From contig NC_089867.1 in NCBI RefSeq assembly GCF_036373705.1, positions 14,981,501-15,045,500 of the forward strand: a DNA stretch of 64,000 nt. The letters run 5' to 3'. Under the pieces are notes generated by a model. That model made no database searches. It was given only the letters and a program-made list of their open reading frames with translations, and was not told the origin of the DNA. This stretch comes from Amia ocellicauda. Lineage: Eukaryota; Chordata; Actinopteri; Amiiformes; Amiidae. Position 1 is the stretch's first letter. Each line of letters starts with the position of its first letter. This document shows, piece after piece, positions 25,117-62,170 of this stretch. The position numbers and the translations under genes are program-made.

Positions 25117-25235
25117 TATTGTTATTTATTTATTAGCAGACACCCTTATCCGGGGCGACTTACCATATATGCAAGACACATTGTAAAGCATTACAAAAGC
25201 ACTACAATCATTACAAAATACATATAAAAGCTTTA
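25117..25235. repeat. interspersed repeat with AGCAGACnCTTATCC motif
   Basis: tttattagcagacacccttatccggggcgacttacc is a diverged copy of a motif seen in many fish repeats. A second copy is at 31418-31478. I cannot assign the family. Confidence 0.5.
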
Positions 25236-25902
25236 GAAAATTATGACTAAATAAATTCAGTCAAATTACAGTCACAGATATTATCACAGTTACTGCCAAT
25301 CATTATTGTTCCCCCCCAAACCAAAAAGAAAGGGGAGAGATCTGAGACAGGGAGGGAACTTGTGTCGTTAGATTTGTTAGCATAGCGAATATTCTATTTT
25401 TCACATTCTTTCAAAATAGACGGACTTCAGTTCAAATAAACCTGCCCGAAGGCACTGTGGCCGAGTCCTGGATTTAGTGGCGGTGACGGAGGGTTGTGTT
25501 ATCGGAGGTGTGTGCGCTCTCCCTAGTGGGGAGTTAGAGTAAATGCATCCAGTTCCAAGGAGCCACACAAGTATTCCACTGTATTTTCAAAACTATATAA
25601 ACTAAAATCAATATTAATGTCCTGCTCCTGCTCTGTCTCTTGCTAGATTTGCTCATTGATATTTAAGTTGCTTTTAGAAAATTTGGTCTCTGGGCCAAAA
25701 AACTATTTGGAAACTGGTGGAATCTCAGTCAGGCCTTGGTATTGACTCAGTCACATACGAAGTCACGCATGTATTTGAATGCACACGCACATAGGAACAT
25801 AAACAAGCAACCCTGCCACGGGCACACCCACACACACTCACGTACATACATACGCAAGGAAGCCGACAGGGCATCAGCTGCTGGTTTTTCCAGTTCGGTG
25901 AC

Positions 25903-25908
25903 TTTATT
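25903..25908 (-). terminator. possible poly(A) signal of the 26286-29217 gene
   Basis: On the - strand this is AATAAA within caAATAAAgtc, about 380 bases after the TGA at 26288-26286. It is the first good candidate downstream of that stop. Confidence 0.35.
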
Positions 25909-26285
25909 TGATTCTGTTTACAAATCCAGGAATCCAGACTAGTGATAAACAAATAAAGCAACAATAAAAAAATACACACAAATTAAAATACTTTCTTGTC
26001 AAAACATCCATACTTTTTCAGAATTGTGGAGCCCTGATAGGAGTGCTGATAGCAATTAATAAAACGATACAAAGAATTTGAATTCTCATAGAGATACAAA
26101 GTTAAATGGATACACCAGTGTACACTTCGGAACAATTGTGCTCAGTGGGGCTTGCAGTACTGTGACCCGCATAGTACACATGGTGCCCAGCTGCTTCCCT
26201 GACCTGCAGGACACAGCTACACTGATGCTGGGGTTGTCGCTGACCCAGTGCACCCAGGGGGCTGTTTCAGAGCTGGGGACGGGGT

Positions 26286-26420
26286 TCAGTGCGTGTCCGT
26301 CCTTGCGTCTCTGTATTTTTTGAAGATCTGCAGTGTCAGGGAGGACATGGAGGGGTCAGCATCCACCAGGCCGGCGGACAGCAGCAGGGCTACACACTGC
26401 AGGTCATTCTCACTGGCGTC
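26286..26420 (-). CDS. exon 4 of small membrane protein (C-terminal domain and stop)
   Basis: 135 nt including the stop. The acceptor is cttgtttcccctgaag. It encodes DASENDLQCVALLLSAGL and continues to KKYRDARTDTH. GC-rich codon third positions and a clean frame distinguish it from surrounding DNA. Confidence 0.6.
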   Translation of the reverse strand, partial: DASENDLQCVALLLSAGLVDADPSMSSLTLQIFKKYRDARTDTH

Positions 26421-29217
26421 CTTCAGGGGAAACAAGCAGCGGTGGGTTAGTACACACATTGTTGAAGGCCTGTTCCATACGGCTGGCTTTATTTTGTGTA
26501 CATGTGGCGCCCTTCATTGGCTGTTAATGAAATTCACGTCCACTTCAATTCATGAAGATGGATTAATAATGTTGAGGCTAATTTTCCCTCTATATAAACA
26601 CAAACAAAGCTGTCTGGAGCAGTGTGTGTGTGTGGGAGGGGGTGCTGGTGAACACTGCCTCCCTGGCTTCAGTGGTAAGGAACCTGTTCCACAGGCGCTG
26701 TGCTCCTGACAGGGAGAGGTGCCGGCGGTGACCTCAGCCACAGTCAGCTGAGTCCCGTTAAAACTCTGACGAGGTCTGATGAAATCGGGAGTTTATTATT
26801 AGTTTTGTGACGTGAAAGAATGATTGATTGATCTGATGTTCACCACTAACTCACAAAGTTCAGACTAGCTTATGGGAAAGCTGTTTTGGTTTCTTGAGCA
26901 ATAAAAAGATTTTATCCTTTGTTTTTGTTTTGGTTTAACATTTTTCTCGTGTTAAGACGCTCTGAGGGGAACCAGGAAAACACGGCCAGTGGATGATTTG
27001 AAAGATGATTTGTTTCCAATTTGTTTCCAGTGAAAGGCTTTGTCACCTGAGCAGGTGTCATCTGTGTGCAATGCTGGGGAACAAGTTCTGTTGCCTCCTT
27101 CCTCTAGCTCTACACTGCCTGCCACACATGCCCCTGCCATATTAAAACGAGCACACCCCAGACACAGAGGAGTTGCCCAGGTGGTGCCCATCATCTGTAC
27201 ATCTGTCTGATCTACCTGAGTGTCTGTGTGTCGGGCCCTGCATGGTACACAAAGCTGAGGGAGCACAATCGGATACTCCATTTTGTGTAGCATTGCATAC
27301 TATACATGCAGTGTATGCATTTTAGTGTTCCAGTATCTTCACTGATTCACGATCGCACCAGTGCTCCTCAACAGGGACCCACCGGATTCATACCAGGCTT
27401 GGTGTAGTGAGGTGCACTGGTACGCTGGCTCTGACAGGGAGCAGGTCAAGGCTGGCACACAGCAGTGGGGGGATTAAGGAACAGAAAGCTCCGACTCACC
27501 AGCACATTCCTGACCCTGTGGCCCAGCCTCTCGCGGTCCTTTCGATGCATCCGCTCTTCTCTCCCCGGCACCTCTCTTGCGGTCACCTTCTTCTTCTTCT
27601 GTAACACAAGATGCGTTGTTATTTCCATGTGCCAGGAAAGAAAACAGATAAGACAAGTTGGGGGTTCCAAAGCTTTTTGTTCAGTGGCAGAGGGATAGTT
27701 TCTGCTTCCTACAAGAACTTGTTATAAAGTTGTAAGATGTGAAAGATAACACCAGGGGTGGAAAGAGCAGTGCACGTATTTGATATATGTAGATTTTGTA
27801 GAGACCGAAACCTGCCCTGGGGCAGAAAGGTTGGACGGTCACCCTCGCAGTGTTCAGTCATTGCACTGAGTCTGCTCACTCTCACATGACATCAGCTAAT
27901 AGGAGTCACCACAGTCAATAGAAACAATTAGCCCTCTCTTTAGTGCCAGGTGTAAACCACTTGTAGCAATTGAGCTGCTTAACACTGAACTGAAAATCTT
28001 GAGTATTCACTGTCTGTGTCTAAGAAGAGAAAGTGGGGGTTATAAAGTTATAAAGCAGCTCTGTAGCAGCTCTGAAGCTGATGTCAGGACCATATGTAAC
28101 ACCACAATATCACTCATATGGAAAAGTATACAAAGCATCAGCTAACCATATACTAGAAGAAGAGGATGAGGAGGACAAGGAAGAGTTTCATAATCTTGGC
28201 CAGGCTTGTTTTACAGTATCAGGAGAGGTTTTCGAATATTTCCTTATAATATAGTCTACGGCAGTGTAATGTGTCAATTCCCCATTTAAGTGTGGGAAGG
28301 AAAAGAAAAGTGAAATTAATGTAAAGCTTGAAGAGGGATAGTATAGTATACCATCAAAACCCTGGCAAAGCAAAGTTCATGCAATGGTTTATCCAAGGGG
28401 AGAACTAGCAAATGACTCTGGATGGAAAGTTAGACCTCTTATGAATGTTTAGCGCAGTGAGACCTCAGTGTTTGATTTGTGATTTCTTCAGCAGACTCTA
28501 GGCTCAGATTTCTTAAAAAATGCAGTTCAACTGCTCAGTCAGCTGCAGTCAGGTGTTCAGGAGGGCGACACTGTGTATTATCAGGCCAGCAATCTAGATA
28601 TGTGAGCTAGACTGGGCTAGATCCAAACACATTTTAATAGCACTCAGTAAAACATTTTTTTTACATTTTTTGTATTGTCAAAAACTCATAAAAGATGAAA
28701 TTGTTAAAGTTTACATTGTGTTCTGAAACAGTGATGCATTTCTCCTTCATCTCAACAGCTCACTGAGTTGTTTTAATTTTTGTATACTTTTTTAATATAA
28801 AAAACATAAATCCTAGTTGCTCCAGAGGTACAATGGAGGAGTGATTGTAAGAGAGAGAAATAATCAGAAAGATGATCTCACCTGCTGCAGCCCCTTTGAA
28901 ATGCCCATGATGAGCAGAATGGCACTGACAATAAACTGCAGAGGAAAAGACCCATGAATGCCAAACAATAACACCTTAAAAAAGTTAACAACATGTGAAT
29001 TCAATAAAATAAAATGTCTGATGAGAGTCAGAAATTAATTATTTAAGCAAATATGATCAATAATGGAGAGAGTGATAAGCTCCCAAAAATCCTAGCACTA
29101 CCTCAGAACACATACAATCACCAGGAGAACTGATCGGTTTAGTTGTTTTTGTGACTCTCCAATCCTTGGCACAGCACAGTAAACAAACAGTAAAGTGACT
29201 TGACTCACCCACAGCAT
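26286..29217 (-). CDS. unrecognised small single-pass membrane protein, four-exon gene (98 aa)
   Basis: Four - strand exons join in phase 0: 29217-29209, 28935-28882, 27598-27500 and 26420-26286 (stop TGA 26288-26286). Every junction has GT/AG, with strong donors TGG|GTGAGT, CAG|GTGAGA and CTG|GTGAGT and pyrimidine-rich acceptors before exons 2 and 4. The product starts MLWFIVSAILLIMGISKGLQ, one hydrophobic segment (about residues 1-17) fit for a signal anchor. A highly basic stretch follows (KKKKVTAREVPGREERMHRK and on), then a predicted helical C-terminus with CVALLLSAGLVDADPSM and TLQIFKKYRDARTDTH. An in-frame TAA lies upstream of the ATG with no other ATG between. The start context is weak (C at -3), so an upstream coding exon is not excluded. 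I do not recognise the family. The coherent frame across four spliced exons is the evidence that it is real. Confidence 0.55.
27500..27598 (-). CDS. exon 3 of small membrane protein (basic linker)
   Basis: 99 nt (33 codons). It starts with four Lys codons after the acceptor gttacag and ends RVRNVL before donor ctg|gtgagtcgg. It is rich in Arg, Lys and Glu, consistent with a cytosolic positively charged linker after a membrane anchor. Confidence 0.55.
28882..28935 (-). CDS. exon 2 of small membrane protein (transmembrane segment)
   Basis: 54 nt (18 codons) between acceptor cctctgcag and donor cag|gtgagatc. It encodes most of the hydrophobic segment, FIVSAILLIMGISKGLQQ. Confidence 0.55.
29209..29217 (-). 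CDS. exon 1 coding part of small membrane protein (MLW)
   Basis: ATG CTG TGG followed directly by donor GTGAGTC. Upstream in frame there is no further ATG before a TAA, which supports this start, although the Kozak context is poor. Confidence 0.4.
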
Positions 29218-30139
29218 GTGAAAATCTTGCTCAGCTCTCAAGTGTCCCTGTATGAGTGTGTCCCTGTGCCTCTGCCTGGCAGTGAGTTATACCGTGCGCA
29301 CGGAGAGAGAACACGCCTCCGACACGTGCAGTCTGTCTGAGGCCCCCCCAGGGAGCGGAGCCGAGCTGGGAAATTCCCTGGCAGAGCAGGAACCTCTTGC
29401 CTCACTAACAGAGCAGTGCTGGCAGGTTTACTCCACTCAGGCCCAGCATGATACTCAGACGGACTTCGATGACATTCTGACCCCAGTATTCTGAGACAAG
29501 TTTAACAGACATGTCACCCTGCAACAAATCAACACGTTAACAACATATCTTTAATATTTAAAGCTCTAGCCAGGTACAAATGAAGGCATGAACCCACAAC
29601 AGCATCCATAACTGCAATACAAACGTTTCAATTAGCAAGGATACAAATGTGTATATTTACTGTACTCTGCACATCTGTAGTCACTTTGGAACAGTAAATA
29701 TATCAAGATACATAGTATACACACATGTATTGGCATCTATAATTAGTTTATAAATGGATCTCACACTTTGAGAAAGCAATTAAGTTCCTGACCTCTTGTG
29801 CAGTCTTTACGCGGGATGTGGTCACTATTGTGACAGATTGTAAACAAACACTGGGCTGAATGTCTGCCTATTGTCCTCCATTGTGTGGAAGAAGTGCAGC
29901 AAGTTGTTCTCTTTCTTTTGCAAATAGAAAAGCATAAAGACAGGTGGCGGTGGTGACACACTGGCCTGAGGGTTTAGTCTGATCGCACCCTGCTGCCTCT
30001 GAAGAGGAAAGGAGAGGAGAGGAGGGAAGGCGGAGTCTGTAGAGCCAGGAGTGACAGAAAGTTTTCTGACTGACAGTATAGACAGGTCGACATGTCTAAT
30101 TTGTAGTTTAATGTAGCGTTCTGTAGTTCAGAACACCCC
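29218..30139. other. no gene seen
   Basis: Upstream flank of the small membrane-protein gene. It would contain that gene's promoter and 5' UTR, but I see no clear TATA box or CpG cluster apart from scattered cg near 29290-29340. Confidence 0.4.
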
Positions 30140-30968
30140 AGGCTTCTATAGGAAAGAGGGTGTCAATTAGAGGAGTTGTTTCTAACTGGAGTGAGGTTGT
30201 TAGTGGAGTTCCACAGGGATCAATACTAGGGTCTTTGCTTTTTCTAATCTGTATATTAATGATCTGGACTCTGGGATAGTTAGCAAACTGGCAGATGACA
30301 CAAAAATAGGTGGCTCAGCAGATACAATCTCGGCAGCACAGGTTATTCAAAGGGACTTAGATAATATTCAGTTGTGGGCCGCCACCTGGCAGATGAAATT
30401 CAATGACGACAAGTGCAAGGTATTACATGCAGGTAACAAAAATGTCCACTATAATGACACTATGGGAGGAATAGAACTGGAAGAAGTAAAGCATGAGAAA
30501 GACCTAGGAGTCTACGTGGACTCCTCACTTTCTCCATCCAAACAATGTGGGGAAGCAATAAAAAAGGCAAACAGAATGTTAGGGTATATTGTCAAAACAA
30601 GGGCAGTGATGTTCAGACTGTACAATGCACTAGTTAGAGCTCATCTGGATACTGTGGACAGTTCTGGGCTCCACACTTCAAGAAAGATATCGCTGCTCTA
30701 GAGGCAGTTCAGAGGAGAGCAACCAGACTTATTCCAGGTCTGAAGGGAATGTCCTACTGAGAGACTGAGGGAACTGAACCTTTTCACCCTGGAACAGAGG
30801 AGACTACGTGGGGACTTGATCCAAGACTTAAAAATCATGAAAGGCATCGACCACATCAGACCAGAGGAGCTTTTCCACATCAGCAGGGACACACATGGAA
30901 ATTGGATCACTTACTTATTAATGGACACCAAACATCGGTAAACGTTCTTATGTTATTATGTTCTTATG
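30140..30968 (+). mobile_element. CR1/Rex-like LINE fragment, reverse-transcriptase C-terminus to 3' tail
   Basis: The + strand reads VVSNWSEVVSGVPQGSILG, the conserved RT block, and after frame shifts WQMKFNDDKCKVLHAGNK and HEKDLGVYVDSSLSPSKQC, then [12 protein letters not shown] and RRLRGDLIQ in other frames. It ends in an octamer-like tail (gttcttatgttattatgttcttatg), as CR1-clade elements do. It is 5' truncated and frame-shifted, hence dead. The same family occurs at 36653-36868 and 62185-62935, both on the - strand. Confidence 0.8.
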
Positions 30969-32590: not shown

Positions 32591-33566
32591 GACCAGGGCT
32601 GAAAAGCATTTATCTACAGTCAAACATATTTGCATTTATTCATTTATTTCGATTATTTTCCTTGAATGTTCTGTCGCTCATCACTGAAGGTCACTTTCAA
32701 TTCATACACACTCTAAAAAGTTTTCATGACACTACTCAAAACCCCCAGCTGACACAGTTCAATACTAATTCATACAATACATACAATAAAAACACTACTG
32801 CTACATGCTTTCATACAAGATACAATTGTACTTTTCATTTACATAGCAGCTTTTCATATTGTGACCAAAATCTTCAAAATGTTTCCATAAAAACTTGTGT
32901 TCAATACCGCACTTTACCAGGAGATGACAGTGTAGCCTGTATATAATTGAGCAGGGACGGGAAAACCAGTGCGTTAGAAACAAAATAGCAGGTCTCAGTA
33001 GCCTGCAGGTCGGTTCAATGTTGTTTCAATGGGAAATAGATTTATAAAAGTAGTCATGTGCCGACAGCAGGTGTTGTGATGGGATGGGTACTGACTGAAT
33101 GATAAATCATTCCTTATGGATAGATGTGCTGCGTCTTGCATCGGATTCAGCACTAAAATACCTCTCTGCCATTTGAAGTTAAGAAGTTTGAATTGTGACC
33201 CTAATTTTATTTGAGCAAGTAATAATGTATTTGAAGCTATCCAAAGCAATAGTAATGTATGGTAGCCTATCTAATAATAATCGCATGACTGTCCACCTTT
33301 TCATGGGATTGCCTCCCCAGTTTCTGAATTCCTGAAGATTTCACTTTCTGCAGGGAGTGGTGCCTGTGATCATTTAAAATGCCATTTGTTATTTCACTCA
33401 ATAATCCCGATATTTCTGAAACAGAAAGGGCCTCAACAGAAAAGTAGCAAGAGCCGGTTAGTTTCGTTTCCATGTAGAAGTGCGGACACAAGCTTTGCAA
33501 AACACCACAATCGAAACAGAAATGAAAAAAGGTGTGGTCACCCAGTTTCCAGCTGCAGAGAGCAAG
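32591..33566. other. upstream flank of HSPA12-like copy A
   Basis: AT-rich, with no exon seen. The promoter of copy A should lie here, but I cannot point to a TATA box or CpG cluster with confidence. Confidence 0.3.
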
Positions 33567-33844
33567 ATGTGCCACTCGTTTCTCATAGTGGCTGTGGACT
33601 TCGGCACAGCGTACAGCGGCTACTGCTTCTGTGTCCAGTCCTGCACGGACAACATCCGCTCCGTGTCCTGGGGCTCGGAGCGCGGCTACAGACCCCCCAA
33701 ACCCCGACCTGCGCCCTGTTCAACCCCCACAAGAAACTCAGTAGATTTGGCTATGACGCCGTCATCAAGTACAACACCATGGCTTCGGAGGAGTCCAGAA
33801 AGTGGTATTTCTTTGAAAACTTTAAAATGGAGCTGTACAATAAG
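33567..33844 (+). CDS. HSPA12-like copy A, exon 1
   Basis: Starts MCHSFLIVAVDFGTAYSGYC, matching the MAPSFFTVAIDFGTT start of copy C, and ends MELYNK before donor gtaggag. The frame shifts by one missing base near 33706-33712; the second half (CALFNPHKKL onward) is in another frame. Two earlier in-frame ATGs (33480, 33522) are less likely starts. Confidence 0.75.
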
Positions 33845-36285
33845 GTAGGAGAAATACTTAAACATATTGAAATAAATATATACACAAATGATAATGCGCT
33901 TTTAAAAAAAGTGTACAATAAAATGTATTAAAAACTTGTGAAGTGAAAGTTTGCAGGATCAAAGTGTATTTTCATTCCAACTTCACTCTCTGCTCCACTG
34001 AGAAACCCGGACAGACACTGTAACCTGGTGCTCCCAGTCCTGCAGTCTTGCTCAGTCTTTGGCCTCACTGAGCCCTCTTTGACTATACTAGGTGGAGGCG
34101 GTCTAAGGGCTCCTTTCCTCTCTGTGGAAACATTTATATTACATTTTTCATATGTTCTATTCATTACTTTTTAACAGCAAGTAATGAGCTGCACAGTATG
34201 CATCATTGATGTGGAGTAAAATACACACAAACATATACATTTACATGGATGAATTTATCATTTTCAATACAATGTTTCATTCTAAATGTGCTCATCTTCT
34301 TCCCAAATGTAGAAAATCACTAAAGATTTGATGATCCCTGCTAAGAGTGGAAAGCCGTTCCCAGCTCTGACGGTGTTCTCTGAGAGCCTGCGCTTCCTGA
34401 AGGACCATGCCCTGAGCACCATCAGCGACCAGACCTGTGGCAGGAAGTTCATCTCCTCTGATGTCACCTGGGTGCTGACAGTGCCGGCCATCTGGGACGC
34501 TGCAGCCAAACAGTTCATGAGACTGGCGGCCACTGAGGTGGGTCTCAGTTCCTTACCAACAAAGATATCCAGCTTTTGCATGAGTGACAGTGCATGAGGT
34601 CCGGGAGAACGGCTCCCTGAAAGAGCTGCAGGGGGTGTCTGGAGGGGGTGGTGAGGCACGTTTGCAGACAAAGATTTCAGAGCCTTTCTCAAAGAGATTT
34701 TTATCTTGGCATTCATATATATGTGTTAACAGCTACAAATGCATATATGCATATTGACAAGTTTCACGATGTACCTTATAAATTCAGATGCAATGCCCAG
34801 GTTAACAGATGGTTTACCTCCCTCCTGCACAGGCGGGTCTGGTGTCAGAGCTGGACTCGGAGCAGCTGATTCTTGCCCTGGAGCCGGAGACAGCTTCCAT
34901 GTGGTGTAAGCAGCTGCCCAAGGAAGGGTTTGTGGGAGAGGGAGGAAGGGACAACACCTTTGACCAGACACCGGGAGTGCAGTACATTGCTGTGGACTGT
35001 GGTGGTAAGAATCACTTTTTATTTTCCTTTTCTTGTCAAACTTAAACTTCAATAAGGTCTTCCCATGTATGACATTTTATGGTCAGTGGAACTCTATTTC
35101 TACATTGCCTGTCCAGTTGTCTCAATACAGTATATAAGAAGTAAAGATTTACACATGAACATGAACTTGCTCTCTACAGTCGGAAACTGGCTATTGAACA
35201 TAATCCTTTCTTAAATACTTCTTTCTGTCTCTGTTCTTACAGGGGGGACTATAGACATCACAGTGCATAAGGTCCTGGAGAACGGCTCCCTGAAGGAGCT
35301 TCAGAGGGCGTCTGGAGGGGGGTGGGGGGGAACGTCTGTAGACAAGCAATTCCAAGCCTTTCTCAAAGAGACTTTCAATCTGGGTGTGTGGGACAGGTAC
35401 AAGAGGGAGCACCCTGGAGAGCTGCACAGGATGATGTACAGCTTCTCCACTCAGAAGTGTACATCAGGAGAAGAGGACCTCTACATCATGTGCTTCGCCA
35501 ATTTAATCAGATGTGCAGAGGAGCAGAAAGAGATGTCTGAGTATTTTAAGCATGTGGACGGTGTGTCTTGGTCAGATGGGTGTATTACGATTTCAAATAA
35601 CAAGCTCAGAAGCTTCTTTGAGGGTAGCTTGAAGAGGATAGTGAATGAAGTAGAAGCAATCCTGTCAACACCTGAGATTCACATCGACTACATCCTCTTG
35701 GTCGGGGGCTATGCTTCTAGCACGTTCCTGAGAGAGGAAATCCGTCAGCAGTTCAGCAGCAGGTGCCGAGTGCTGTGTCCCTATGACTCCCAGCTGGCAA
35801 TTGCAAAGGGAGCAATTCTGTTTGGAAACGACCCCAAAATAATCACATCCCGGGTCAGTGGCCTTACCTATGGCATTGCAGTAGCTAAGGACTTTGATTC
35901 TTCAGTCCACGACCCCAGAAAACGCAGAGTAAATAAAGCTGGGGACTATGTGTACTGTGCGGATGTGTTTGCTAAATTAGTGGAAAAGGGTCAGTCTGTA
36001 GCATTTAATGAAATCTCAGAGTATTTCTATTCACCCATAGATAAAGAGCAGAAGTCCATGCATTTTAGATTTTTCCACACAGAAAAGCTGTGTGCCATGT
36101 ATGTGGATGAGGCTGACATGCAGAGAATCGGCTCCTTCACTGTTACGATGCCCGATACCAGTCTGGGCAGGATGCGCAGAGTCAGACTGGACATTAAATT
36201 TGGTCTAACAGAAATACAGGCCACAGCCACTGATCTGTCATCCTATGAAACACAAGCAATCAGCCTGGACTTTTTGACTGAGTGA
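33567..36285 (+). CDS. heat shock 70 kDa protein 12A-like, copy A (four exons; one-base frame shift in exon 1)
   Basis: Exons 33567-33844, 34313-34537, 34833-35004 and 35243-36285 splice in phases 0, 0 and 1 to a product of about 573 residues, the usual size for this fish HSPA12-like group. The Hsp70-type ATPase signatures are present: VDFGTAYSGY (phosphate 1), VDCGG|GTIDITVH across the exon 3-4 junction (phosphate 2) and LLVGGYASSTFLREEIRQQF (adenosine). VTWVLTVPAIWDAAAKQFMR is the most diagnostic block. Like HSPA12A/B it lacks the classical Hsp70 substrate-binding domain. As written, exon 1 loses one base after PPK at about 33706-33712, so the frame changes before the FGYD block; restoring frame makes exon 1 exactly 93 codons. 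This is either a sequence error or a recent lesion. The chaperone or signalling role is inferred from the family. Confidence 0.8.
34313..34537 (+). CDS. HSPA12-like copy A, exon 2
   Basis: 225 nt, phase 0 on both sides, with acceptor cccaaatgtag and donor gag|gtgggtc. It encodes the FPALTVFSESLRFLKDHAL helix region and VTWVLTVPAIWDAAAKQFMR. Confidence 0.85.
34587..34709 (+). pseudogene. partial duplicate of exon 4 inside intron 2 of copy A
   Basis: About 120 bases match the start of exon 4 (35260-35385): gtgcatgaggtccgggagaacggctccctg against gtgcataaggtcctggagaacggctccctg, continuing to tttctcaaagaga. It lacks an acceptor and sits before exon 3, so it is out of order and non-functional, left by local duplication or unequal exchange. 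Confidence 0.85.
34833..35004 (+). CDS. HSPA12-like copy A, exon 3
   Basis: 172 nt, acceptor cctcctgcacag, donor g|gtaagaat. It encodes ELDSEQLILALEPETASMWC and ends YIAVDCG plus one base. Copies B and C are shorter by 1 and 13 bases, breaking their frame. Confidence 0.85.
35243..36285 (+). CDS. HSPA12-like copy A, exon 4 (C-terminal half)
   Basis: 1043 nt, acceptor tgttcttacag, stop TGA 36283-36285. It holds the rest of phosphate 2 (GTIDITVH), YILLVGGYASSTFLREEI, CPYDSQLAIAKGAILFGNDP and the C-terminal RRVRLDIKFGLTEIQATATD block typical of HSPA12 proteins. Confidence 0.9.
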
Positions 36286-40649: not shown

Positions 40650-40746
40650 CAGGTGTCTTTTATACAGGTAATGAGCTGAGATTAGGAGCATTCTCTTAAA
40701 GGGAGTGCTCCTAATCTCAGCTCGTTACCTGTATAAAAGACACCTG
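40650..40746. repeat. 41-bp palindromic arms in the 5' leader of Tc1 copy 1
   Basis: Left arm 40650-40690 and right arm 40706-40746 are inverted complements with one mismatch, separated by 15 bases. The structure sits between the left inverted repeat and the transposase ATG. The same hairpin is in copy 2. Confidence 0.95.
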
Positions 40747-40788
40747 TCCACAGAACCAGTCAATCAATCAGATTCCAAACTCTCCACC

Positions 40789-41802
40789 ATGGCCAAGACC
40801 AAAGAGCTGTCCAAGGATGTCAGGGACAAGACTGTAGACCTACACAAGGCTGGAATGGGCTACAAGACCATCGCCAAGCAGCTAGGTGAGAAGGTGACAA
40901 CAGTTGGTGCGATTATTCGCAAATGGAAGAAACACAAAATAACTGTCAGTTTCCCTCGGTCTGGGGCTCCATGCAAGATCTCACCTCGTGGAGTTTCAAT
41001 GATCATGAGAACGGTGAGGAATCAGCCCAGAACTACACGGGAGGATCTTTTTAATGATCTCAAGGCAGCTGGGACCATAGTCACCAAGAAAACAATTGGT
41101 AACACACTACGCCGTGAAGGACTGAAATCCTGCAGCACCCGCAAGGTCCCCCTGCTCAAGAAAGCACATGTACAGGCCCGTCTGAAGTTTGCCAGTGAAC
41201 ATCTGAATGATTCAGAGGAGAACTGGGTGAAAGTGTTGTGGTCAGATGAGACCAAAATCGAGCTCTTTGGCATCAACTCAACTCGCCGTGTTTGGAGGAG
41301 GAGGAATGACCCCAAGAACACCATCCCCACCGTCAAACATGGAGGTGGAAACATTATGCTTTGGGGGTGTTTTTCTGCTAAGGGGACAGGACAACTGCAC
41401 CGCATCAAAGGGACGATGGATGGGGCCATGTACCGTCAAATCTTGGGTGAGAACCTCCTTCCCTCAGCCAGGGCATTGAAAATGGGTCGTGGATGGGTAT
41501 TCCAGCATGACAATGACCCAAAACACACAGCCAAGGCAACAAAGGAGTGGCTCAAGAAGAAGCACATTAAGGTCCTGGAGTGGCCTAGCCAGTCTCCAGA
41601 CCTCAATCCCATAGAAAATCTGTGGAGGGAGCTGAAGGTTCGAGTTGCCAAACGTCAGCCTCGAAACCTTAATGACTTGGAGAGGATCTGCAAAGAGGAG
41701 TGGGACAAAATCCCTCCTGAGATGTGTGCAAACCTGGTGGCCAACTACAAGAAACGTCTGACCTCTGTGATTGCCAACAAGGGTTTTGCCACCAAGTACT
41801 AA
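40789..41802 (+). CDS. Tc1-family transposase, intact ORF (337 aa)
   Basis: Start ATG 40789 (context ccaccATGg, optimal Kozak) gives [20 protein letters not shown], the usual N-terminus. Residues 1-110 hold two helix-turn-helix units that bind the inverted repeats. The catalytic triad is visible as D153 (LWSDETKIE), D241 (QHDNDPKHT) and E276 (NPIENLW), the D-34-E spacing of Tc1 enzymes. It ends NKGFATKY, and 337 residues is about full length (Sleeping Beauty is 340). An upstream in-frame ATG at 40705 lies in the leader hairpin and is unlikely to be used. No frame shift or stop is seen. Confidence 0.9.
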
Positions 41803-46602: not shown

Positions 46603-46827
46603 ACAATTTCAAAAAACCTCATGATCTCAGCTAAAAATGGAGAACAATTTCCTGCACTGAAGGTATTCTCAGAGAGCCTGGGGTTTCTCAAGGAGCATGC
46701 TCTGAAAACCATCAGTGACTCCACAAGCGGGAAGGAATTTATCGCCTCTGATGTGACCTGGGTGCTGACAGTGCCGGCTATTTGGGACTCTGCTGCAAAA
46801 CAGTTCATGAGACTGGCAGCCACTAAG
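46603..46827 (+). pseudogene. HSPA12-like copy B, exon 2
   Basis: Encodes TISKNLMISAK, then FPALKVFSESLGFLKEHAL and VTWVLTVPAIWDSAAKQFMR; donor aag|gtgagtc is good. The acceptor dinucleotide is AA, so normal splicing into this exon is not expected. Confidence 0.8.
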
Positions 46828-49588: not shown

Positions 49589-50589
49589 TTAGTACTTGGT
49601 GGCAAAACCCTTGTTGGCAATCACAGAGGTCAGACGTTTCTTGTAGTTGGCCACCAGGTTTGCACACATCTCAGGAGGGATTTTGTCCCACTCCTCTTTG
49701 CAGATCCTCTCCAAGTCATTAAGGTTTCGAGGCTGACGTTTGGCAACTCGAACCTTCAGCTCCCTCCACAGATTTTCTATGGGATTAAGGTCTGGAGACT
49801 GGCTAGGCCACTCCAGGACCTTAATGTGCTTCTTCCTGAGCCACTCCTTTGTTGCCTTGGCTGTGTGTTTTGGGTCATTGTCATGCTGGAATACCCATCC
49901 ACGACCCATTTTCAATGCCCTGGCTGAGGGAAGGAGGTTCTCACCCAAGATTTGACGGTACATGGCCCCATCCATCGTCCCTTTGATGCGGTGCAGTTGT
50001 CCTGTCCCCTTAGCAGAAAAACACCCCCAAAGCATAATGTTTCCACCTCCATGTTTGACAGTGGGGATGGTGTTCTTGGGGTCATTCCTCCTCCTCCAAA
50101 CACGGCGAGTTGAGTTGATGCCAAAGAGCTCGGTCTCTGACCACAACACTTTCACCCAGTTCTCCTCTGAATCATTCAGATGTTGGCAAACTTTAGACGG
50201 GCCTGTACATGTGCTTTCTTGAGCAGGGGGACCTTGCGGGCGCTGCAGGATTTCAGTCCTTCACGGCGTAGTGTGTTACCAATTGTTTTCTTGGTGACTA
50301 TGGTCCCAGCTGCCTTGAGATCATTAACAAGATCCTCCCGTGTAGTTCTGGGCTGATTCCTCACCGTTCTCATGATCATTGAAACTCCACGAGGTGAGAT
50401 CTTGCATGGAGCCCCAGACCGAGGGAGACTGACAGTTATTTTGTGTTTCTTCCATTTGCGAATAATCGCACCAACTGTTGTCACCTTCTCACCAAGCTGC
50501 TTGGCGATGGTCTTGTAGCCCATTCCAGCCTTGTGTAGGTCTACAATCTTGTCCCTGACATCCATGGACAGCTCTTTGGTCTTGGCCAT
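49589..50589 (-). pseudogene. Tc1-family transposase, disabled copy
   Basis: ATG at 50589-50587 ([20 protein letters not shown]). Compared with the intact copy two deletions stand out. Four bases are lost in the codons for KFASEHL (about 50185), shifting the frame. Nine bases are lost from WSDETKIE (about 50133), leaving WSETE and removing the first catalytic Asp. The second Asp (QHDNDPKHT) and the Glu (NPIENLW) remain. So it cannot make active enzyme but could be moved by the other copy's product. Confidence 0.9.
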
Positions 50590-50631
50590 GGTGGAGAGTT
50601 TGGAATCTGATTGATTGATTGCTTCTGTGGA

Positions 50632-50728
50632 CAGGTGTCTTTTATACAGGTAACGAGCTGAGATTAGGAGCACTCCCTTTAAGAGAGTGCTCCTAATCTC
50701 AGCTCGTTACCTGTATAAAAGACACCTG
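50632..50728. repeat. perfect 41-bp palindromic arms in Tc1 copy 2
   Basis: Arms 50632-50672 and 50688-50728 are exact inverted complements around a 15-base loop. It is the counterpart of 40650-40746. Confidence 0.95.
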
Positions 50729-51186: not shown

Positions 51187-51357
51187 GCAGATATGGTGTC
51201 TGAGAGTGACTCAGAGAATCTGATCATTACCCTGGAGCCTGAGGCAGCCTCAGTGTGGTGCAAACAGCTGCCTAAAGAGGGCTTTGTGGCAGAGGGAGGG
51301 GATCAAGACAAACTGCAGCAGAAGACTGGGAACAGTACATTGTTGTCGACTGTGGAG
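51187..51357 (+). pseudogene. HSPA12-like copy B, exon 3
   Basis: Acceptor taaattgcag, donor gag|gtgaggc. It encodes ESDSENLIITLEPEAASVWC, then shifts frame by one missing base near 51330, so the Asp-Cys-Gly phosphate-2 codons are read out of frame (NSTLLSTVE). Confidence 0.8.
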
Positions 51358-51688
51358 GTGAGGCATAACGCATCGATAATACCTTAAAACCCTACATTAA
51401 GAACTCTCAAAAAGGCACTTGTCCTTGTAAGTTCATAGGATATCTGTGTTCAAATTCATGAATTTATCATTTTAATCTTAACATGGCTTCTGAGTCTCCT
51501 GAAGAACTCTGTCAAGATGTTGTTTTCCATTTTTCTGTATGATCACTAGCCAATTGCATAATATTTTAATCTAGGCCTGGCTGCTTCAGCAGTGGAAACA
51601 AGGCATTATAGTAACACTGCCATCCTTTATTCAGCTTTAATAAATGTATATATATATTTAAAAAATGTTTTGGTTATTGTTCTTGAAG

Positions 51689-52731
51689 GTGGAACAATTG
51701 ACATCACATTGCACGAGGTCCAAGAGAATGGATCTCTGAAGGAGCTGCGGAGAGCGTCTGGTGGGGGATGGGGTGGAGGATCTGTAGATGACAATTTCAT
51801 TTCCTTTCTGAGAGATATATTTCACACAAATGTGTGGGACAAGTACACAAGAAAACACCCCGGAGAACTCCAAAAGATGATGTACCATTTCTCCATTCAA
51901 AAATGTAGTGGACAGGCAGAAGACATATACATTACATGTCACTACAATTTGATCAAATTAGCAGATGAAAAGCAGCCAATTTCTTATTTTTTTTCTGATG
52001 TTGATGGGGCTACTTGGTCAGATGGCTGTATCCAAATCTCGTATGACAAGCTCAAGAGCTTTTTTGCGTACAGCATTATGAAAATAGTTAATGAAATAAA
52101 AGCTATTCTTACAACACCTGAAATCCACATAGACTACATCCTGCTGGTCGGGGGCTATGCTTCTTGCAAGTTTCTGAGAGAGGAGATCCGTCAGCAGTTC
52201 AGCAGCAGATGCAAAGTGCTGTGTCCCTACGACTCCCAGCTGGCCATCGCAAAGGGAGCCATTCTGTTTGGAAACGACCCCAAAATAATAGGGTCAAGAA
52301 TCAGTGCCCTGACCTATGGCATTGATATGTGTTCAAAATTCAATCCTTTGATTCACAACCCCCAAAAAATGAGAGTTAATAAAAAAAGAGATTATGAATA
52401 TTGTACTGAACTTTTTAAAAGATTTGTGGAGAAAGGTCAGTCTGTAGCTTGCAATGAAGTGTCAGAACATTTCTATTGCCCTGTAGATGATGACCAGAAA
52501 TCAATGTTCTTCCAATTTTTCAGCACAGAAAAGAAAAATGCCAAATATGTGGATGAGCCTGGGCTAAAGAGGATTGGGTCATTTTCTGTTCCAATGCCTG
52601 ATATCAGACTGGGCAGAAGTCGCAGAGTGAGATTGGATGTCAATTTTGGTTTAACAGAAATAAAAGCAACAGCCACAGATTTGACATCAAGTAAGACTCA
52701 ATCGATCAGACTGGATTTCTTGACAATGTAG
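51689..52731 (+). pseudogene. HSPA12-like copy B, exon 4 (fully open)
   Basis: Acceptor tgttcttgaag, stop TAG 52729-52731. GTIDITLHEVQENGSLKELR, YILLVGGYASCKFLREEI and CPYDSQLAIAKGAILFGNDP are intact. It has the same length as copy A's exon 4. Confidence 0.85.
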
Positions 52732-60089: not shown

Positions 60090-60314
60090 GATGTCCACAC
60101 AGACTTTTTGATTTTAGCAACAAATGAAAAGCCCTTTCCTGCCCTGAAAGTGTTCTCGGAGAGTCTGCGGTACCTGAAGGATCATGCCCTAAAAACCATA
60201 AATGACCACTGGAATGGGTTTCAGGTCAACCCCTCTCAGGTCACCTGGGTGCTGACAGTGCCGGCTATCTGGGACTCTAAGGCCAAACAGTTCATGAGAC
60301 TGGCAGCCACTGAG
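60090..60314 (+). pseudogene. HSPA12-like copy C, exon 2
   Basis: 225 nt, open. Acceptor gcttaacag; donor gag|gtggat is poorer than the gtgggt of copy A. Confidence 0.8.
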
Positions 60315-60733
60315 GTGGATGTTACTAAAAACAAAAGTAAGAGCAAAAAAAACAAAACAAAAAAACAATCATATTTTTAAATATAAATCAAGAATGAATA
60401 AACTTTACTCTGTAGAGTTTATAAGGGCGTCTGCTAATACATAATTTACAATAATAATTTACAATAGGTCAAATATTTATATTTTGTTTGAAATACAGTA
60501 TGTGCAAACTCATTAAGTTACAAACATGTTTCTTCAGTGCTATGTAAATTGGTATGAGTGATTAATATTATATTAATAATATACAAAAATATTTCATTCT
60601 TAAATTACAGTTTTTCATATATCATGACATGCAGGATGTCATAATTGTATTCGATAATTAAAAGTGTTTCATATTCAGTTAATTCAGTTGGAGGGATTGA
60701 TTGATATATCCATTAATAAAATAATATTTCCAG

Positions 60734-60892
60734 GCAGGTCTGGTTCCTCACATTACTTCAGACAGTCTGCTAATTGCTCTGGAGCCTGAGGTTGCCTCAG
60801 TGTGGTGTAAACAGCTCGCTGTGAAGGGCTTCCTAGAAGAAAAGAAACTAGAAGATTCTCCAAGAAACAGTACATCCTTGTGGACTGTGGAG
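60734..60892 (+). pseudogene. HSPA12-like copy C, exon 3
   Basis: 159 nt, 13 fewer than in copy A. It encodes SDSLLIALEPEVASVWCKQL but ends in the shifted reading NSTSLWTVE, as in copy B. Confidence 0.8.
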
Positions 60893-61454
60893 GTGAGATA
60901 AAGCTCCCTGCTGGTATCAAGAAGGTAGTACAGTATGTCCGCTTGGGGAGAAACATGTTTAACAATTCTATGTTTAACAATTGTTTTGGTTATATTTGAC
61001 TTTTATTCCGTGTTACACAAAACAAATAAGACAATAAGTCCCAGATGCAAGTTTAAGTTCAGACAGAGACTAAATTCATACATGTTAAATTAAATGTAAG
61101 TGTTGATAAGAATTGATTTTGAACAATTCTATATGGGAAGCATTCAGTTTAATATAAGAAAGCATGGACAATGATTTGACAATATTAGTAGATAACGGAT
61201 TTCTGAATATATTTCAGGGAACATATTAGGAAGTGACATTTTATTTCTCCACAGATGAACACTTTCAAGTTTATTTGGAGGATTTTGATATAATGTTAAT
61301 GTAGCATGATATTACAATTAACAGTATTCAAGACCAATCATTTCCTGAATTTCCTTAAGTAAAATCCGCAATTCCATGTGAAACATTTAACATTAAAATC
61401 AGATGATAAGTTATTAATCATTAATAATCTATTGACATCTGTTTATATTTGTAG

Positions 61455-62170
61455 GTGGCACAGTTGACATCACTGTGCATGAGATCCTTCCTGGAGGATT
61501 TCTCCAAGAACTTCACAGAGCCACTGGAGGGCCATGTGGGGGTTGGAGTGTAGATGAAAACTTCAGGCTCCTTTTAAGGGACACTTTTGGACATGAATGC
61601 TGGGATAGGTATGAGACCAATCATCCTGCCGAATTTCAGAAGATGATGTACAACTTCTACTTTAAAAAAAGCATAGAAGAGGATATCTTCATTGACTGCT
61701 ATTACAGCCTCATAAAACTGACTGAAGAGACGAAAGACCAAGCTTTGTTTCATAAAGTGATGTCACACTGTCAGATGGCACCATCAAAATCACATACAAG
61801 AAGTTTGTGTCACTTTTTGCTGAAAGTTTATGGGAGATAGGAGGCAGAATTGAGGCTTTACTGAGTACACCAGGCTTCAAAATAAACTACCTGCTGTTTG
61901 TTGGCGGTTACGCTTCAAGCAAATGTCTCCGTAAATAGATGATGTAGCAGTTTGGCAGCAGGTGCACTGTGTTGTTCTCTTGTGATCCACAGATGGTCAT
62001 CCTACAAGGAGCCATTGTTTTTGGAAAAAATCCTAAAATTATCAGATCCCAAGTCAGTGCTCTGACTTACGGCATTTCTGGATGCGTGGTGTTTGACAGC
62101 ATGGTCCACAGACCTGAGAAAATGAGAATAACTAAAACAGGACTGCACAAGTCTCTTTAAAAAAATGAAA
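61455..62170 (+). pseudogene. HSPA12-like copy C, exon 4 remnant
   Basis: Acceptor atatttgtag. Open to about 61755, then shifted in frame; a later frame carries INYLLFVGGYASSKCLRK and then two stops. The homology ends at TKTGLHKSLF near 62165. Confidence 0.8.

Follow-up and report, generated by a model that had tools for sequence, protein, structure and literature searches.

We analysed a 64,000-nt stretch of the Amia ocellicauda genome (the window; C24:14981501-15045500 in a genome of 988 Mb). In and around it, the genes follow the order myo1d (+), cdk5r1 (-), a candidate microgene of four exons (-), HSPA12-like (+), C-type lysozyme (-), CYHR1-like (-) and TONSL-like (+). The neighbour that the sequence-only reading had named cdk5r1 is indeed a CDK5 activator (PF03261, 1.5e-100). 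Searches also confirmed the lysozyme (PF00062), an NSF-type CDC48_N domain (PF02359) and a TPR domain in the TONSL-like fragment, and psmd11 was confirmed by a PDB match. The names CYHR1-like, myo1d, ETS and HSPA12-like are presumptive assignments from the sequences. The CYHR1-like and myo1d fragments had no Pfam match at 0.001. The HSPA12-like (Hsp70-related) cluster occupies 33470-36285, 46663-46827, 51187-52731 and 60118-61840 on the + strand; one of its ORFs (379 aa) has a sub-threshold HSP70 match and another (340 aa) has no Pfam match at 0.01. Two Tc1/Sleeping Beauty-type transposases are also present, one as a single open frame of 365 aa (40705-41802, +), whose identity a database search confirmed, and the other split between two frames, of 165 aa and 188 aa (49589-50673, -). 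Just upstream of the microgene lies a reverse-transcriptase-like remnant (30204-30500, +; PF00078, E 0.002, 18.3 bits versus a cut-off of 29.6).

The microgene had been proposed to consist of four minus-strand exons with GT/AG junctions, all in phase 0 and forming a single frame from ATG to TGA. Every coordinate proved to be as claimed (Table 1). The joined coding sequence of 297 nt (9 + 54 + 99 + 135) specifies 98 amino acids followed by TGA, and the product reads MLWFIVSAILLIMGISKGLQQKKKKVTAREVPGREERMHRKDRERLGHRVRNVLDASENDLQCVALLLSAGLVDADPSMSSLTLQIFKKYRDARTDTH. Because the exons encode only 3, 18, 33 and 44 residues, such a gene is easily missed by annotation. As to the remark that the exons are too short for an ORF scan, there is no ORF of at least 100 aa in the microgene frames; from stop to stop, the frames of exons 3 and 4 extend over 91 and 75 aa, respectively.

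Table 1. Coding exons and putative processing and promoter signals of the microgene (positions in the window)
Feature	Position	Strand	Description
Coding exon 1	29209..29217	-	ATG CTG TGG (MLW), donor GTGAGT; 9 nt
Coding exon 2	28882..28935	-	FIVSAILLIMGISKGLQQ, bulk of the hydrophobic segment; 54 nt
Coding exon 3	27500..27598	-	Basic linker KKKKVTAREVPGREERMHRKDRERLGHRVRNVL; 99 nt
Terminal exon 4, including TGA	26286..26420	-	DASENDLQCVALLLSAGLVDADPSMSSLTLQIFKKYRDARTDTH; 135 nt
Branch-point-like TACTAAC	26446..26452	-	In intron 3; its A, at -27 from exon 4, is the putative branch point
Polyadenylation signal AATAAA	25903..25908	-	Begins 378 nt past the end of the stop codon
GT-rich stretch	25831..25850	-	53-72 nt beyond AATAAA; may serve as a downstream element
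TATAA-like box	29287..29291	-	Begins 74 nt before the ATG; from a pattern scan; putative promoter element
CACGTG E-box	29328-29323	-	37 nt upstream of the TATAA-like box; putative promoter element

The exons are accompanied by candidate signals for transcription and processing (Table 1), including a branch-site-like heptamer, TACTAAC, in intron 3. Transcription would start near 29260 and the mRNA would be polyadenylated near 25885. CpG is slightly enriched over the putative promoter (0.42-0.47 versus 0.35 for the window), and no tandem repeats were found at the microgene locus. A bacterial promoter scan (101 bases) is uninformative for a fish gene.

Splice sites were scored against the window background with consensus matrices that, like the human codon table used alongside them, were entered by hand. 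With both strands counted, the window has 7462 GT sites, among which the donors of exons 1, 2 and 3 (at 29208, 28881 and 27499) rank 44th (4.97 bits, top 0.6%), 12th and 14th. Of the 8704 AG sites in the window, the acceptor before 28935 (exon 2) ranks 19th. The acceptors of exons 3 and 4 (before 27598 and 26420) rank 325th and 205th and thus reach only the top 2-4%.

We then ran a home-made dynamic-programming gene-finder without supplying it with any coordinates. Over the 5-kb stretch 25200-30200, its best chain is exactly the four-exon microgene, with a score of 44.3 bits. When candidate internal exons were collected from the window, 13 non-overlapping ones were obtained, among which exon 3 is the sixth. 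Judged by their translations, ten of them belong to cdk5r1, HSPA12-like genes or transposases, and two to the microgene, while one (53287-53238) is unassigned.

The weakest part of the model is exon 1, which contributes little to the chain score. First-exon scores combined donor, codons and start context and deducted a fixed cost for the start. Exon 1 obtains 0.6 bits and ranks ninth of the 21 candidates over 6 kb; up to about 5.4 kb from exon 2, no candidate scores better. A real gene with a wrongly placed start has to be considered: the first exon may lie elsewhere, or translation may begin at the internal ATG 28908 and yield a soluble, basic protein of 86 aa without an anchor. A three-exon chain from that ATG retains 37.7 of the 44.3 bits, the ATG at 29217 sits in a poor start context (C at -3), and eight upstream candidates outscore exon 1. 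However, all eight have donors (34435 or 34468) within an HSPA12-like exon on the opposite strand (34403-34537), whereas donor 29208 is among the strongest GT sites and a TATAA-like box stands upstream of its ATG. On balance, we consider a different start unlikely, while giving it more credit than any other alternative discussed here.

If the four-exon model is right, the protein begins with a hydrophobic stretch of about 16 residues (hydropathy 2.66 over residues 1-15 and 2.03 over residues 1-19, values that rely on exon 1). The four best 15-residue hydropathy windows are all N-terminal, so that the 98-aa frame has one strongly hydrophobic segment. The protein has a pI of 9.9 and a single cysteine. 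Five lysines fall within the nine residues after the hydrophobic segment, and there is no basic residue before it or within the N-terminal 16. By the positive-inside rule, a lysine cluster after the core and none before it corresponds to N-out/C-in anchoring; it is this arrangement of charges that suggests a signal-anchor of that orientation. Exon 4 modelled alone, with no alignment, forms a hairpin of two helices, residues 2-16 and 23-43 of the exon (mean pLDDT 79.4, pTM 0.47).

The claim of a single-pass membrane protein is thus made plausible by the hydropathy and the flanking charges, but it hinges on the 9-nt exon 1, and the same N-terminus might instead be a cleavable signal peptide. Cleavage, for example after Ser16 or Gly18, would release a secreted basic peptide of about 80-82 residues from an otherwise real gene. 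The hydrophobic core is short, Gly14 would break a helix there, and the residues at -3/-1 are small, in keeping with the cleavage rule for signal peptides. Against this, the lysines that directly follow the core, with nothing basic ahead of it, favour N-out/C-in anchoring, and the parent protein of the predicted peptide has only one cysteine. We regard a secreted product as improbable, more so than a displaced start.

It could also be that there is no gene at all and that splice-like signals in non-coding DNA happen to line up. The tiny first exon and the lack of a homologue in the databases and genomes searched would both fit such a chance chain, but three lines of evidence speak strongly against it. 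The first comes from shuffled sequence. The limits of the gene-finder (first exon of at least 3 nt, introns of 70-2500 nt) were chosen with the claimed model already known, so the fair control is provided by shuffles searched under identical limits. In dinucleotide-preserving shuffles of 25200-30200, the best chain scored 4.0 bits on average and 27.2 at most, and none of 1000 reached 44.3. With three intron penalties and 1000 shuffles for each, the maxima were 27.2, 16.2 and 33.9 bits versus 44.3, 35.3 and 50.3 for the real sequence, again without a single shuffle (0/1000 each) attaining the real score. The microgene chain is far beyond chance.

The second line of evidence is a benchmark on 244 kb of real DNA, made up of 80 kb of C3, 50 kb of C22 and 114 kb of C24 (the window included), which was cut into 188 overlapping 5-kb tiles and searched on both strands. 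Of the 30 chains of at least 40 bits, each could be assigned by eye to a Tc1-type transposase or a recognisable gene, in which it lies or to which it is antisense; the rest of the benchmark DNA holds no chain of that strength. The genes carrying them are myo1d, cdk5r1, psmd11, TONSL-like, CYHR1-like, lysozyme, NSF, ETS-domain and HSPA12-like. The microgene itself appears there only as partial chains (37.7 and 32.3 bits) because the tiling cut through it; in a whole tile it scores 44.3. The finder's score by itself is no proof of a gene, since chains on the strand opposite real exons were returned too, at up to 53.4 bits. We recognised no gene opposite the microgene on the + strand.

The third line of evidence, codon composition, makes no use of splice sites. 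The codon model was trained on 2227 codons from gene-finder chains of neighbouring genes and from the cdk5r1 ORF, a set that may include wrongly called exons, and the background consisted of equally long, mutually overlapping open segments from hand-masked non-coding DNA of the window. Of such segments, 3 of 3207 score as high as exon 3 and 1 of 2009 as high as exon 4; both exons are thus above about 99.9% of the open non-coding segments and look coding-like. Exon 2 does not stand out in codon usage, with 627 of 6276 segments scoring as high, as might be anticipated of a stretch that is short and hydrophobic. Taken together, splice-site ranks, the gene-finder, codons and signals give strong statistical support to the proposal that a small spliced gene lies upstream of cdk5r1, and a chance chain appears very improbable.

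The microgene is apparently single-copy. A protein-level search of its own 988-Mb genome returned only its own exons among the five candidates scored, apart from a stretch on C23 (34% identity, an internal stop, E 2.8) that we take as a chance match. A search of the same genome with exon 4 and part of exon 3 found only the query itself (one candidate scored), and a DNA search confined to 28800-29250 likewise matched solely itself. Relatives are absent from the viral contigs and the bacterial and archaeal genomes searched, as expected for a fish gene.

The same genome has a second cdk5r1-like gene, with 68% identity, on C3. C22 carries a third CDK5 activator (61% identity), which is probably cdk5r2. 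Neither the 80 kb around the C3 gene nor the 50 kb around the C22 gene contains a convincing match to the microgene (best E 2.4). The C3 cdk5r1 is adjoined by psmd11 (C3:25790001-25810000), which is the mammalian gene order. In the corresponding place on C24 are the microgene and the HSPA12-like genes, followed by lysozyme, CYHR1-like and TONSL-like. These differences between the C24 and C3 neighbours point to rearrangement or loss after duplication. The lack of a C3 copy means either that this copy was lost or that the microgene reached its C24 site after the duplication. A decayed gene, or a non-coding transcript derived from one, would agree with the missing copy beside the second cdk5r1, but a decayed gene usually shows at least one lesion, while here neither the frame nor the stop codon is damaged and every intron keeps both of its splice dinucleotides, and we hold this to be the least probable of the alternatives.

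A separate observation concerns gasdermins. The fish gasdermin GSDMEc is described as linked with MYO1D and CDK5R1 in a published study (PMC9355259). In line with that linkage, a weak gasdermin-like exon (24.8 bits, or 25.2 with its in-frame neighbours) lies at C3:25921130-25921330, some 125 kb away from cdk5r1 on C3. None of the eight reported gasdermin matches falls in the window, and gasdermins are unrelated to the microgene.

Taking all readings with an expressed coding gene together, we consider it highly probable that the gene is real. Our preferred reading, to which we assign a probability of roughly 0.6, is a four-exon gene, situated between cdk5r1 and the HSPA12-like cluster, whose small product has an N-out/C-in signal-anchor followed by a basic linker and, in the cytosol, a helical hairpin. 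Residues 1-16 would insert into the endoplasmic reticulum as an uncleaved signal-anchor, leaving the N-terminus outside and the C-terminus in the cytosol, where the basic linker and the hairpin would make up the exposed part. Judging from this anatomy, the cytosolic part may be a small module for docking or regulation that serves a larger membrane protein or an acidic lipid surface. Docking or regulation of a larger membrane protein seems the likeliest of roles, yet even with the anchoring granted it is a guess that we would sooner expect to fail than to hold. Of the original interpretation as a whole, the spliced gene is strongly supported, the absence of a catalogued family is supported as far as Pfam, NCBIfam and the PDB go, and the membrane part is plausible.

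In kind, the microgene is an ordinary object, probably a gene for a small membrane protein, of unplaced family. It illustrates how annotation guided by ORF length and homology can lose genes that are split into very short exons. Tentatively, and with somewhat less than even odds, it may represent an undescribed fish or wider vertebrate family of 98-residue signal-anchored proteins with a cytosolic hairpin, lying outside Pfam and beside one of two cdk5r1 copies. If it is conserved, it adds an uncharacterised family of membrane microproteins that laboratory fish would make accessible to experiment; if it is already present in public annotation as an uncharacterised protein, it is an ordinary but unstudied gene. 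The titles and abstract openings searched name no such gene.

That the protein went unrecognised in the sequence-only reading agrees with our searches of Pfam, NCBIfam and PDB sequences, which gave sub-threshold matches only. With the 98-aa protein as query, Pfam profiles yielded just two matches short of their cut-offs, to TRM13 at E 0.012 and to MAPEG at E 0.076; NCBIfam yielded one sub-threshold match to a bacterial permease (E 0.029, 14.7 versus 120 bits); and PDB sequences gave nothing better than E 0.7. As a control, we searched block-shuffled versions of the protein, six out of nine of which matched some Pfam family (best E 0.021-0.11). Since shuffles match at the same order of E, neither TRM13 nor MAPEG was counted.

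The likeness to TRM13 methyltransferase (PF05206) is a weak match of the basic linker, residues 19-57, covering 39 of 257 profile positions with 15.6 bits versus a cut-off of 26. Its E-value is slightly better than that of the best shuffle (0.021), though of the same order. MAPEG (PF01124) was weighed seriously because hydrophobic segments align over equal lengths: residues 5-73 of the microgene protein match profile positions 7-75, with the first hydrophobic segment placed at the start of the profile. The score is 13.6 bits versus a cut-off of 23.4, and shuffles match other families comparably. Moreover, MAPEG proteins have four membrane-spanning helices, whereas the microgene protein has one strongly hydrophobic segment. 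A likeness of another sort is that to the SMIM class and to micropeptide genes. SMIM, for small integral membrane proteins of vertebrates, is a naming class and not a homologous family, and Pfam gave no match above the cut-off. What the microgene shares with such genes is a product of just 98 aa with a single predicted hydrophobic segment, and exons that fall below ORF-length rules.
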